From: Dehalococcoidia bacterium | GTDB lineage: Bacteria; Chloroflexota; Dehalococcoidia; Lucifugimonadales; UBA826 | Length of the DNA stretch: 41,062 nucleotides | Assembly (NCBI GenBank): GCA_029936675.1 | Contig: JAPYSB010000014.1 | Location: 7,802 to 48,863, forward strand | Direction of reading: 5' to 3' | Part shown: positions 8,756-20,000 of the stretch, one piece after another | Layout of the letters: the number at the start of each line of letters is the position of its first letter | How positions within the stretch are numbered: the stretch's first letter is position 1 | Notes under the pieces: model-generated | What the model was told of the DNA's origin: nothing | The model's database searches: none | What the model saw: only the letters and a program-made list of their open reading frames with translations | Position numbers and translations under genes: made by a program

Positions 8756-10501
8756 ATGGCTGACTTAACTACACCACTAAGAGATGGGGAAACTACTGAG
8801 ACTGAGGATCTAACTGACGGTTTTAACCTCGTCATTGACGCTCTCAAACTCAATGAAATCAACACCATTTACAATGTTCCTGGGATTCCTGTCACAGATC
8901 TCGGGCGTATGATGCAAGCCTCGGGTATGAGGATACTGTCATTTCGACATGAACAAAATGCAGGATACGCCGCAGCTGCATCGGGATTTCTTACAAAAAA
9001 ACCTGGAATTTGTTTAACCGTGTCAGCTCCCGGGTTTTTAAACGGTTTGACAGCTCTAGCTCACGCCACAACAAACTGCTTTCCCATGATCTTGATTAGC
9101 GGCTCTTCTGAGAGGGAAATAGTTGATCTTCAGCAGGGTGACTATGAGGAAATGGATCAACTGGCTGTCGCAAAGCCGCTCTGCAAGGCTGCTTACAGGG
9201 TGCTTAATGCAGAAGATATTGGCATTGGTATCGCTCGTGCTATACGGGCTGCTGTTTCGGGACGACCAGGCGGTGTTTATCTTGATCTACCAGGTAAGCT
9301 TTTCACTCAGGTTATAGATGCCGATAAAGGTGCTAAGTCACTAGTGAAAGTAGTCGATGCGGCTCCAAGTCAGCTTCCTTCAAATGAGTCAGTTGATAGA
9401 GCTTTAGGTTTGCTCAGAACAGCGGCACGTCCTCTCATTATTCTAGGTAAAGGGGCAGCCTATGCACAGGCGGATGAAGATATTCGGGATTTGGTAGAGA
9501 AAAGTGGTATTCCATATCTACCGATGAGTATGGCCAAAGGACTTTTGCCTGATACCCACTCACAGTCTGCGTCGGCTGCACGATCATTGGTCCTAAAAGA
9601 ATCCGATGTAGTAATGGTGGTAGGTGCTCGGATAAATTGGCTTTTGTCTCACGGTAAAGGTAGAACTTGGGGTGATCACCCCAAGAAATTTATCCAGGTT
9701 GATATAGAACCTAAAGAAATGGACAGCAATGTTGAGATTGCAGCTCCGGTGGTTGGTGACATAGGGTCATGTGTTAAATCGTTGCTCGATGGTTTGGGGG
9801 AAGACTGGCCTATGCCTTCGTCAGAATGGACAGATGAAATTAGATCCAAAGTTGAAACCAATGTTGCGCGAATGGCATCACGATTGGAAAACAACAGCGA
9901 GCCAATGGATTTTCACGGAGCCCTAGGTGCCTTGAGAACAATTATCAAAGAGAGGCCCGACGCAATTCTTATAAATGAGGGTGCCAACACCCTTGATTTC
10001 GCCAGAACAATAATTGACATGTATAAACCTAGAAAGCGAATCGATGTAGGTACTTGGGGTGTCATGGGAATTGGAATGGGATCTGCAATTGCGGCAGCAG
10101 TAGAAACAGGCCAGCCTGTTCTCGCGATCGAAGGAGATAGCGCCTTCGGGTTTTCTGGTATGGAAATTGAAACAATTTGCCGGTATGACCTGCCGGTTTG
10201 CGTGGTAGTTTTCAATAATAGTGGCATCTACCGTGGGATGGACACCAACCCGACTGGCGGTGCAGACGCTGCGACCACAGTATTTGTCAAAAATTCAAGG
10301 TACGACAAAATGATAGAGGCTTTTGGAGGAGTTGGGGTGAGCGTGAAATCGCCGGAAGAATTAAGCCATGCAGTGAACGAGGCAATGGATTCTGGTAAAC
10401 CAACCTTAATTAATGCTGTTATAGATAGCAGCGCAGGAACAGAAAGTGGCCGGATCGGTAACTTAAATCCGAAAAGTGCTGTTGTAAGCAGGAAAAAATA
10501 G
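8756..10501 (+). CDS. oxc: Oxalyl-CoA decarboxylase (ThDP-dependent)
   Basis: The 581-residue protein matches oxalyl-CoA decarboxylase along its length. Diagnostic segments include GIPVTDLGRMMQASGMR, FRHEQNAGYAAAASGF with the ThDP-activating Glu66, LTVSAPGFLNGLTALAHAT, and LQQGDYEEMDQ with Tyr130-Glu131 at the active site. The cofactor motif runs from EGDSAFGFSGMEIETICRY (GDS at 460-462) to FNNSGIY (NN at 487-488), and the C-terminus has AGTESGRIGNLNPK. The enzyme converts oxalyl-CoA to formyl-CoA and CO2. A ribosome-binding site GGAGAT precedes the ATG. CoA-transferases upstream could supply oxalyl-CoA. A 2-hydroxyacyl-CoA lyase is the closest alternative but fits the active-site segments less well. 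Confidence 0.93.
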   Translation: MADLTTPLRDGETTETEDLTDGFNLVIDALKLNEINTIYNVPGIPVTDLGRMMQASGMRILSFRHEQNAGYAAAASGFLTKKPGICLTVSAPGFLNGLTALAHATTNCFPMILISGSSEREIVDLQQGDYEEMDQLAVAKPLCKAAYRVLNAEDIGIGIARAIRAAVSGRPGGVYLDLPGKLFTQVIDADKGAKSLVKVVDAAPSQLPSNESVDRALGLLRTAARPLIILGKGAAYAQADEDIRDLVEKSGIPYLPMSMAKGLLPDTHSQSASAARSLVLKESDVVMVVGARINWLLSHGKGRTWGDHPKKFIQVDIEPKEMDSNVEIAAPVVGDIGSCVKSLLDGLGEDWPMPSSEWTDEIRSKVETNVARMASRLENNSEPMDFHGALGALRTIIKERPDAILINEGANTLDFARTIIDMYKPRKRIDVGTWGVMGIGMGSAIAAAVETGQPVLAIEGDSAFGFSGMEIETICRYDLPVCVVVFNNSGIYRGMDTNPTGGADAATTVFVKNSRYDKMIEAFGGVGVSVKSPEELSHAVNEAMDSGKPTLINAVIDSSAGTESGRIGNLNPKSAVVSRKK

Positions 10502-16577: not shown

Positions 16578-17789
16578 TTAGCTTCGAGCAACCACGTTAT
16601 TGTCATCTAACTCTTTAATCTCATCTTCAGTGTATTCTGCGATATCCCTTAATATTTCTTCAGTATGCTGTCCGACAGTAGGTGTTGATCCCACCACCAT
16701 TTCTGTCCGGCTAAATTTAATCATTTTACCTGCAACATGTATCTTACCGGCGATCGGATCGGGAACTTCCATAAGAATCTCTCTTTCGTGTAGATGTGAT
16801 TCCTGTGCAGCCTGCGCCACACTATTTACCGGAGCGCAAGGAATACTAAAATCTGATAGATAGTCCACCACATCCTTCATTTTCCTTTCTGAAAACCAAA
16901 TAGATAGCACATCATTTATAGCCGCGCCATTCTCAGCTCTAGATGCTCGGGAAATAAACCTGTCGTCTATTAGCCACTCTGGTTTATCTATGGCCTCGCA
17001 CATTCTTTTCCATATGTTGTTATTTCCGGCTGCAATAATCACAAATCCATCTGAAGTCTCGTACATTCCTCCAAGCGGGTTATCTGCACCGCCATAGCTG
17101 GTGGACCTTTCAGTTATATATCCGTCACCTAGATAGGCGGATAGTGGTATTTCATTAACGGTGAATCCTGTATCAGCTAGTGATACGTCAATTGCTTGAC
17201 CTTCTCCTGAGATTTCCCTTTCCCACAGGGCGGCCAAGGCCCCGACGGTTGCATGTAGAGAGGTTATTCGATCAATTAGAGGGAAGTAAGTCTTGGTTGG
17301 AGGGTCTCCTTTGAGCCCAGTTAAGGACATCAGGCCGCCCATTGCTTGCCCGATAGGGTCAAAGCCAACTTTATCACGGTGTGGACCGTCCTGGCCGTAG
17401 GCAGAAGCGTTAATCATGATAATTTTCGGGTTAAGTTTTTTGAGAACATCATATCCGAATCCCATAATATCGATCGTTCCAGGTCGAAAATTTTGAAGGA
17501 AAACATCAGACTTTTTGACTAATCTCGTCAAAACCTCTTTTCCCTTGTCTGTTCGCAGATCTATGGCTAGACTTTTTTTACCGCTGTTGTACTGTACCCA
17601 ATAGGCACTCTGGCCTCTTACTGTTGGACCATTTTGTCTGCTTTCATCACCTTTGAGGGCTTCGACTTTAATAACCTCTGCACCCATTCGGGCGAACATG
17701 AGAGCGCACCTTGGGCCTGCTTGATAGCGCCCTAAATCCAGCATTCTAATGCCGGAAAGTGGCCCGCCATTATTATTTTCAGTCGCCAT
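16578..17789 (-). CDS. Family III CoA-transferase (CaiB/BaiF)
   Basis: This 403-residue protein is a standard family III CoA-transferase: LSGIRMLDLGRYQAGPRCALMFARMGAEVIKVE at the start, NSGKKSLAIDL, NFRPGTIDIMGFGYD, and PLIDRITSLHATVGALAALW with Asp173 in the catalytic position, followed by SGEGQAIDVS. The C-terminus has VGQHTEEIL. AAGGTGA serves as the ribosome-binding site. It lies 150 nt after the selenoprotein gene and 101 nt before E1 alpha, all on the minus strand, so the three may form one transcription unit. The acyl substrate is not determinable. Confidence 0.92.
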   Translation of the reverse strand: MATENNNGGPLSGIRMLDLGRYQAGPRCALMFARMGAEVIKVEALKGDESRQNGPTVRGQSAYWVQYNSGKKSLAIDLRTDKGKEVLTRLVKKSDVFLQNFRPGTIDIMGFGYDVLKKLNPKIIMINASAYGQDGPHRDKVGFDPIGQAMGGLMSLTGLKGDPPTKTYFPLIDRITSLHATVGALAALWEREISGEGQAIDVSLADTGFTVNEIPLSAYLGDGYITERSTSYGGADNPLGGMYETSDGFVIIAAGNNNIWKRMCEAIDKPEWLIDDRFISRASRAENGAAINDVLSIWFSERKMKDVVDYLSDFSIPCAPVNSVAQAAQESHLHEREILMEVPDPIAGKIHVAGKMIKFSRTEMVVGSTPTVGQHTEEILRDIAEYTEDEIKELDDNNVVARS

Positions 17790-17939: not shown

Positions 17940-19577
17940 TTACGGTAGGTACTGATCTATTCCGACAGTCTCTGCACTTGGCCCCGCTGGGAAAACAAGT
18001 GTTTTTGCCCTATCAGCACCAACCACCACAATATCTATTTTGCCTGGGTCGGCTAATAGCGGCATAGTAGTGTCCAATAATTCCTGTTCAGTTTTATCAC
18101 GAATCCACTTCCATTCTTCTTCCACCCTAGCATCTTTAACAGGCATGAATTGTATGAATTTACCAAGGCTTCCGTAGGCGTGCTCAAAGATAAAATTCTT
18201 TGCATCCTCTTTTGACCAACCTTCAGCTGCAACCGGTAATGCGACATCAGGGGGCATGAATATTAGCCGCTCCTGACTTTGCAAATGGCCAACCGAGCGG
18301 TTACCGAAAGTAATTCCATATGCCAAAGTCTTAAGTAATCCTTCGGCAGACGTATTACCTTGGTCTTGTACGTCTAGTTCTCCGTTGGTGGTGAAAATGG
18401 AAACGGCACTCTGGTCATCTAAGAAACCTTTGTCAGCCGCATATGAAGCCCACGGGCTGGCGCCTTCATTTTCGGCTAAACATGGCACAAACTTCCTTGT
18501 TGTACCTATAGTATCCATGTCCATCTTATGCGGGTACCACATGCCTATATTTTTTAAGCAAAGGTAAAAAGCTCTGCCAATTGTGATATTTATTTCATTT
18601 TCTTTTCCGGGCCCTAGTGCTGATCCTCCATTAAGGCCTACTTCCTTAGCGATAGGGCCATTCACAACCAACATCGGGGCCTGTGGGCTCGTAGACATCA
18701 GCATAGATTTGCCACCATGACCACCGGTTACCGATAGACATTTAACAGCTGCGATAATGATTGGCATGTGTTCGGGTTTTGCTCCTGCCATAGCCGAGTT
18801 GATCGCGATTTGTTCCACTGTAGCAATTCCGAACCCGGGGGGCATATCGCACACCACATCATCAGCATTCAAGTTAGTGCCCTCTATTAGTTTCTCAACA
18901 GCCTCTCTTGTGGGAGGCCAAACAGGCAGAGCGTCGGACCAATCACGGTCTGTAAATTCTCGATTCATCTTCAGTACTGCATCGTACCGATCTTCTCCCT
19001 CAAATCTTAAAATCGATTCAGCGCTTTCCGATTGGGCAGCCTGCGTTTCATCCGAGGTCAGACTGGCGATCAAATCGTCTATAGCATCTTCCGTTTGGGA
19101 TACACAAAGGTCGTCAGCCAGGTTTCTATAAATCCTAGGAACTATTACAAATTGGAGGTCAGGCATTCCAAACGTTCTGCTACTAGCCAAGGCGTCGTCC
19201 TCAAAACGTCCCGAAACTATTGGGACTGCGGGTTTCCCCATCTTTTCGACTTCTATCATGTCGTGGCACATCCACGAGGCGCAGGTTCCTCAATCAGCAG
19301 TGGCACCTATTACCAGGTCACATTCCTCCGCTGCCTGCTTTACGATAGCAGGAGGGGTTGGATAGTTACCGCCTGTGTAGAAATTAACAGCAACGTTGCT
19401 AAAGCGTTCCTGTATCATTTCACCAGCCCGGTTGAGAGCAAGGTCTCCTCCGTGAGTGCCACTCCATATTAGACCGATCGTCTTGCCGTCCAGAGAACTC
19501 GGCCGAGGATTCGGTTTGAGTATATTGATCATACCTCGCTGCTGAGCGACAGGATTAGAGACTTCCAAAAGATGCAT
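17940..19577 (-). CDS. UGSC-family selenoprotein, UGA-encoded selenocysteine at residue 96
   Basis: Two minus-strand frames, 19577-19290 and 19271-17940, are in the same phase and separated only by one TGA (19292-19290). Read as selenocysteine, this gives a 545-residue protein with LVIGATAD-U-G-T-C-ASWMCHD. That is the U-G-[ST]-C motif of the UGSC selenoprotein family described from marine metagenomes, and it resembles the UGTC site of glycine-reductase GrdB. The N-terminal 95 residues (GKTIGLIWSGTHGGD, then EECDLVIGATAD) and the following VEKMGKPAVPI form one continuous domain. A stem-loop lies right after the UGA. Residues from about 200 on form a second large domain of unknown function. 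The start has AGGAG 6 nt upstream. The reaction is unknown; a redox role is likely. No Sec machinery is encoded in the window. Confidence 0.88.
19261..19277 (-). promoter_or_regulatory. Candidate bacterial SECIS stem-loop
   Basis: On the minus strand TCGTGG-ATGTG-CCACGA forms a perfect 6-bp stem with a 5-nt G-containing loop. It starts 12 nt after the UGA, so 18 nt separate the UGA from the loop. This matches the placement of bacterial SECIS elements, which lie in the coding sequence just downstream of the UGA and bind SelB. Confidence 0.7.
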
Positions 19578-20000
19578 ATCTAACTCCTAATTATTTGATA
19601 AATGAAACTTTTCATTTCATTAGCTATTTTTACCACTATATTGAAACGACTTCAAATACTCCTTCTGCCTTGAAACAGGTCTATTTTTGCTGGGAGCCAT
19701 GACGGCGACACCGAAAATCTGACTAATAACTTGCAGAAAAAATTTCGGCACGACAAAGAATGAAAACTATTTTGGTATTTCAGGGGCTCCGCCTACCAAA
19801 TCCCTTCCTTGCTCCTTTGATACCCTAGGAATTTATGTTGCAATCAGATTTGAAAATCCCATTGGACACACCATTCAACGATTTTTTTTGTTTAAGGCAG
19901 CAGTTTATTTGTAAAACCAGATTGAATCTTTAGAATGAATTAGTAATTAACGTAGGATTGAAAATACATTTGCAATATTTGAAAAATAGGTGAAATAAAG
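19578..20000. other. Divergent intergenic region, selenoprotein and SMP-30-like genes
   Basis: No gene or RNA is recognised. The region includes the ribosome-binding site and an inverted repeat for the selenoprotein gene at one end, and AGGTGA before the ATG at 20001 at the other. The middle is AT-rich without evident structure. Confidence 0.5.
19600..19617. promoter_or_regulatory. Inverted repeat upstream of the selenoprotein gene
   Basis: AAATGAAA-CT-TTTCATTT has perfect 8-bp arms with a 2-nt centre. It lies 23 nt upstream of the selenoprotein start codon, a position suited to an operator. It is AT-rich, so chance is possible. Confidence 0.35.

Follow-up and report, generated by a model that had tools for sequence, protein, structure and literature searches.

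In bacterial selenocysteine (Sec) insertion, SelB together with GTP and Sec-tRNA(Sec) binds a SECIS element and delivers selenocysteine. The consensus bacterial SECIS (bSECIS) model, of the bSECISearch type, requires a G in the first two positions of the apical loop, and its authors admit that some elements fail this rule (PMC13188914). The UGSC selenoprotein family and a 'UGSC/Unknown_1' fusion were reported in 2008 (PMC2398784). Here we analyse a 41,062-nucleotide stretch of DNA (the window) from a marine SAR202-like Chloroflexota bacterium, in which a minus-strand reading frame running from an ATG at 19577 to 17940 spans 545 residues, provided that its single in-frame UGA encodes an amino acid. 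Its product belongs to family PF24696 and shares with the 2008 family a Sec-first UxxC motif, the UGSC domain, a fused second domain and a SECIS-type hairpin. It differs from that family in its motif, U96-G-T-C99, and in a score of 90.3 bits that falls below the 125-bit cut-off of the equivalog model NF041046, 'UGSC family (seleno)protein'. The C-terminal domain, for which no Pfam or NCBIfam family was matched, is likely the 'Unknown_1' of PMC2398784. The gene has close relatives in SAR202, Dehalococcoidia and other Chloroflexi MAGs and in Candidatus Entotheonella. The family and its fusion are already on record; new here are the comparative support for the hairpin and the displaced G of its loop, and a single-sequence guess becomes a comparatively supported SECIS. 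On the sequence comparisons described below, we put at about 0.95 the probability that this hairpin serves a UGSC selenoprotein gene as its bacterial SECIS element.

Table 1. Predicted features of the fused UGSC gene and its surroundings, in window coordinates.
Feature	Position	Strand	Basis or remark
Coding sequence read through UGA: 545-aa fused UGSC selenoprotein (P0001), Sec at residue 96, then stop codon	17940..19577	-	
In-frame UGA, predicted to be read as selenocysteine (Sec96)	19290..19292	-	TGA kept across the clade
Cys99 codon of the U-G-T-C motif, presumed resolving Cys	19281..19283	-	invariant in 22 aligned fused homologues
Spacer between UGA and stem, 12 nt, GGAACCUGCGCC	19278..19289	-	
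Predicted SECIS stem, 5' arm UCGUGG	19272..19277	-	geometry, alignment and covariation
Predicted SECIS apical loop AUGUG	19267..19271	-	the family most often has AGUGU
Predicted SECIS stem, 3' arm CCACGA	19261..19266	-	geometry, alignment and covariation
UGSC domain PF24696, residues 8-174	19056..19556	-	E 1.3e-28, 100.7 bits (gathering score 25)
C-terminal partner domain, residues ~197-545	17943..18989	-	separate neighbouring gene at many homologous loci
AGGAG, likely ribosome-binding site, 6 nt before ATG	19584..19588	-	read from the sequence
CoA-transferase family III gene, downstream, probable pathway neighbour	16578..17789	-	PF02515, E 2e-111

A preliminary description of the window had proposed a SECIS element from a perfect 6-bp stem with a 5-nt loop beginning 12 nt after the UGA, and from a UGA-to-loop distance of 18 nt. 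Both observations hold on the minus strand: the stem and its AUGUG loop occupy 19277-19261, 12 nt after the UGA at 19292-19290, and the distance to the loop is 12 + 6 = 18 nt. The hairpin lies immediately downstream of the Sec UGA and inside the coding region, and it agrees with the consensus bSECIS model in its upper stem (6 bp; range 4-16 bp), loop size (5 nt; 3-9 nt), UGA-to-loop spacing (range 16-37 nt) and ViennaRNA minimum free energy (−9.8 kcal/mol for 43 nt; threshold ≤ −7.5 kcal/mol). The centroid structure of the 43 nt is the 6-bp stem, and the minimum free energy structure retains the upper 4 bp only. Folding energy was set aside as evidence for a SECIS, as its z value is −1.13 for the 43 nt, with at least equal stability in 25 of 200 shuffles, and spans −0.50 to −1.63 over four folding windows, which is not decisive. 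Among the 1614 TGA triplets on both strands of the window, 69 show a Watson-Crick stem of 6 bp or more in range (loop 3-9 nt, 16-37 nt from the TGA), and the exact geometry of 12-nt spacer, 6 bp and 5-nt loop occurs once. At gathering thresholds Rfam gave no match within the window, and its sole match was tRNA-Sec at a second locus of the same genome (L026). Taken alone, the hairpin is real but is weak evidence and unremarkable; its significance comes from the homologues.

Homologous UGA genes keep the stem by compensatory change. The first alignment comprised 104 rows, 99 of them with a clean TGA; the five set aside were L095 (TGT), a misplaced and masked L102 row, L116 (ACC), L119 (ATG) and L120 (TGC). 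The set scored for covariation (A1) holds 71 of 79 distinct UGA sequences, the other eight carrying a U-S-T-C motif with the hairpin in another register, and its codon-register alignment is gap-free. Over the six pairs plus the loop-closing one, 84.1% of stem cells are paired (71.3% when shuffled) and the covariation score is 0.351 (0.149 when shuffled; maximum 0.115 in slid controls), values that none of 500 shuffles reach, although in related sequences such shuffle counts, like Fisher values, are not true probabilities. Two-sided changes affect 57 cells against 19.1 in shuffles, and RNAalifold, with no structure supplied, returns exactly the upper four pairs, each with double changes. Parsimony reconstruction on a tree places 19.2 compensatory events on the stem diagonal and 6.6 on the next best diagonal; of the seven stem pairs, 13-29 and 14-28 (counted from the UGA) have zero events, and single non-stem pairs reach 4.0. 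The preliminary description had named loss of the stem in homologues, or non-compensatory substitution within it, as the outcome that would speak against its proposal, and the stem is instead kept through compensatory changes. Part of the covariation excess may stem from relatedness, and because relatedness may inflate covariation, the Cys homologues and the synonymous sites matter.

Both bear directly on the idea that the stem has no RNA role and arises merely from the conserved protein motif S-W-x-x-H-D (codons TCN TGG ... CAY GAY). Four of the six window pairs (13-29, 14-28, 16-26 and 17-25) are dictated by the Ser, Trp, His and Asp of this motif, leaving free only 15-27 and 18-24, each of which joins two third codon positions. 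The earlier claim that the stem is evidence independent of the protein motif therefore fails for the window by itself, but it is borne out by covariation across the family, chiefly at these two pairs. Pair 15-27 is formed in 96 and pair 18-24 in 93 of 107 distinct UGA sequences (shuffle means 80.0 and 51.2), counts reached in 0 of 20000 shuffles, whereas in 13 Cys sequences both pair at chance level. Similarly, RNAalifold gives no structure for 12 plasmid Cys homologues (A2, drawn from 14 non-UGA plasmid sequences after removal of L137 and L138, which have Met), and their stem pairing of 61.9% shows no excess over the 58.8% of shuffles. The structure is thus absent or unconstrained in Cys homologues. 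Cys rows number 14 where loops are counted (including L095 and the doubtful fragment L120) and 13, without L120, in the codon analysis. All four upper pairs are kept in 3 of the 12 Cys homologues, as the protein motif alone can yield them; they are missing at the stem position in 21 of the 107 UGA homologues. Codon choice argues further against a by-product. Residues +6 and +9 change jointly, in the combinations that base pairing requires (Cys/His, Ala/Ala, Arg/Arg, Tyr/Tyr, Trp/His). Where +6 is Trp, with a codon ending in G, Val(+8) is encoded by GTC in 29 of 31 genes; where +6 is another residue, GTG is used in 31 of 31. Ser(+7) is AGT in 51 of 51 UGA genes, and the two Ser-bearing Cys genes use TCC or AGC. 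Throughout the 30 members of the window clade Ser101 is TCG or TCA and Asp106 is GAC, codon 104 ends in C throughout the clade though it encodes Cys, Val or Ile, and a synonymous double change from TCG/CAC to TCA/CAT in L018 and L140 preserves pair 15-27. Across 187 windows of three successive invariant-residue columns in the clade, codons 99, 101 and 106 vary least synonymously; two codons 5' of the stem, Ala92 and, in a smaller set, Asp95, also vary little. Taking both sides together, we judge a pure by-product of the protein motif very improbable, and the locus illustrates cleanly how an RNA signal can dictate codon choice, and even amino acids, next to an enzyme active site.

The UGA might instead be a genuine stop or a sequencing error, leaving a broken gene or two reading frames. 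Translation table 11 does give two (19290-19577 and 17940-19271), splitting the 545-residue protein at the UGA, but a TGA stands at the Sec96 codon in 30 of 30 clade members (14 first-found loci, 15 more in the class, and the window), which come from many separately assembled genomes. Coding is conserved on either side, and Cys99 is invariant down to 25% identity in the aligned fused homologues, all of which were chosen for TGA. A survey of 400 Chloroflexota genomes, 42 of them with PF24696 matches, found exactly one internal TGA in 85 of 90 matches, and the genome of the window encodes the full Sec machinery: selA (529.8 bits), selB (351.3 bits), selC (65.5 bits; gathering 47) and selD (384.4 bits), the last with an in-frame TGA of its own. 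A stop or an error is scarcely credible on these grounds. A different objection accepts Sec at the UGA and assigns the SECIS role to another downstream structure, with the 6-bp hairpin a remnant in this clade. In its favour, AUGUG violates the loop rule of the consensus, and our strict bSECIS-like scan formally accepts other 4-bp hairpins of the window; yet one of these uses loop bases that are altered in clade members (AUGUG to AUGGU or AUGAU), and the 6-bp stem persists in all 30, three with one G-U wobble, so we consider this alternative unlikely, with only a slim chance of being correct. The scan itself passes 69 of 71 Sec sequences, 8 of 8 U-S-T-C sequences and also 6 of 12 Cys sequences; it discriminates weakly and was set aside as too permissive. 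We therefore favour the 6-bp hairpin as the SECIS element, and the view of the preliminary description that the stem supports UGA recoding is strengthened by the compensatory changes in homologues, their lack in Cys homologues and the presence of selA, selB, selC and selD.

The apical loop is where the hairpin departs from the consensus. The preliminary description had pointed to a G in the loop; Gs are present at positions 3 and 5 of AUGUG, but none occupies the first two positions in which the model (PMC13188914) places it, and the rule is satisfied only with the closing G-C pair opened. Loops follow the pattern A-U-G-N-(U/G) in 30 of 30 window-clade members (AUGUG in 16, AUGGU in 11, AUGAU in 3) and C-U-U-G-(U/C) in sister fused clades, as CUUGU or CUUGC. 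Among 86 distinct sequences having the four upper pairs, 20 carry no G at either loop position 1 or 2 (7 AUGUG, 12 CUUGU, 1 CUUGC). A U occupies the third loop position in 81 of 107 UGA sequences and 0 of 14 Cys rows; the window loop has no U there. In the 17 CTT-loop loci, several of which are close relatives, CTT accounts for 13% of Leu codons elsewhere in the same genes, and the CUU loop itself looks selected from these codon counts. The hairpin downstream of the TGA in selD of the same genome has a canonical loop starting with G. We tentatively propose, giving it slightly less than an even chance, that fused UGSC genes evolved a SECIS variant in which the loop drops the usual G(20)-U(21) order and the stem is under strict selection. 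If this is true, a single SelB would have to read the shifted loop in addition to the canonical ones of selD and a second UGSC gene of the genome, and SelB in these Chloroflexota would either tolerate a displaced loop G or recognise mainly the stem and its distance. Searches that require a G at loop position 1 or 2 would discard the window hairpin as paired, together with the CUUGU-loop hairpins, and a single family with a fixed stem and varied loops provides a natural series for testing SelB requirements. No discussion of a displaced loop G in UGSC genes was found in the accessible portions of PMC2398784, PMC13188914, PMC9312934, PMC5029168, PMC4607533, PMC1088965 and PMC9499178, and no paper in the collection searched combines UGSC with SAR202, SAR202 with selenoprotein, or 'UGSC family' with selenocysteine. 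The fused family also has a U-S-T-C variant, whose GGUC-loop hairpin sits in a slightly shifted register (L056, L101, L103-L106 and L108-L115).

From these comparisons we infer that Sec is inserted at the UGA and that SelB reads the window loop. With the UGA in the A site, SelB-GTP-Sec-tRNA(Sec) would bind the hairpin 12 nt downstream and deliver selenocysteine in place of termination; the stem would then unwind and the full 545-residue protein be made. The predicted product joins a UGSC domain containing Sec96-Gly-Thr-Cys99 to a partner subunit that is elsewhere a separate gene. Among 30 UGSC loci for which the UGSC model was the only query, the C-terminal domain is fused or is a same-strand neighbour within 1 kb in 25; among plasmid loci it is fused or adjacent in 17 of 17, a count biased by the 15 that were found with a full-length query. 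The arrangement looks like that of a two-subunit enzyme, fused in the window gene. Structure prediction gave a mean pLDDT of 66.3 for the whole protein, whose N-terminal domain matches many common alpha/beta folds with no distinctive winner. The C-terminal domain modelled alone (pLDDT 74.9, pTM 0.80) has a best Foldseek E of 0.22 and, in a fold search, a best Z of 5.9 (rmsd 2.8 over 80 residues), giving no evidence of a new fold, and a PDB sequence search returned nothing below E 0.4.

Relatives resemble selenoprotein B of glycine/betaine/sarcosine reductase (TIGR01917/TIGR01918) and D-proline reductase PrdB (TIGR04483) in sub-threshold matches that span their Sec position, whereas the UGSC domain is small and stand-alone or differently fused. 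The curated GrdB/PrdB cut-off was not reached: P0001 had no hit, and the best relative scored 24.5 bits against 602.2. A paralogue in the same genome matches positions 331-405 of 431 of TIGR01917 (E 1.1e-5, far under the cut-off), a stretch that we take to hold the Sec of the glycine reductase selenoprotein B family. UGSC genes lie beside trxB and trxA on an Arthrobacter plasmid and beside trxB on a Roseovarius plasmid (L135, L136). From the weak similarity to the GrdB/PrdB Sec region and the trx genes beside some homologues, we infer a thioredoxin-fed reductive enzyme with Sec96 and Cys99 as its probable active pair. An oxalyl-CoA decarboxylase gene (8756-10501) and a class III CoA-transferase gene (16578-17789) share the window, and a homologue of the latter is present in 8 of 14 clade loci searched; the neighbourhood suggests CoA-thioester catabolism.

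A second UGSC gene of the same genome is stand-alone and has an in-frame TGA (L026 5935-7590; G000 contig C3, 114024-115587); it adjoins a separate homologue of the C-terminal domain and lies about 4 kb from selC. Plasmids of haloarchaea, Actinomycetota and Proteobacteria yielded Cys homologues, and those of Acidovorax and Paracoccus the UGA form. One fused relative (L155; G418, contig C101) has two TGA codons, with U-G-T-U replacing U-G-T-C; this may be a Sec-Sec pair or an error in the sequence. Met occupies the Sec/Cys position (M-G-T-S or M-G-V-T) in L119 and in proteins encoded on Vibrio and Sporomusa plasmids (L137, L138); the redox pair is lost in all three, and the two plasmid proteins retain the two-domain layout despite the Met.
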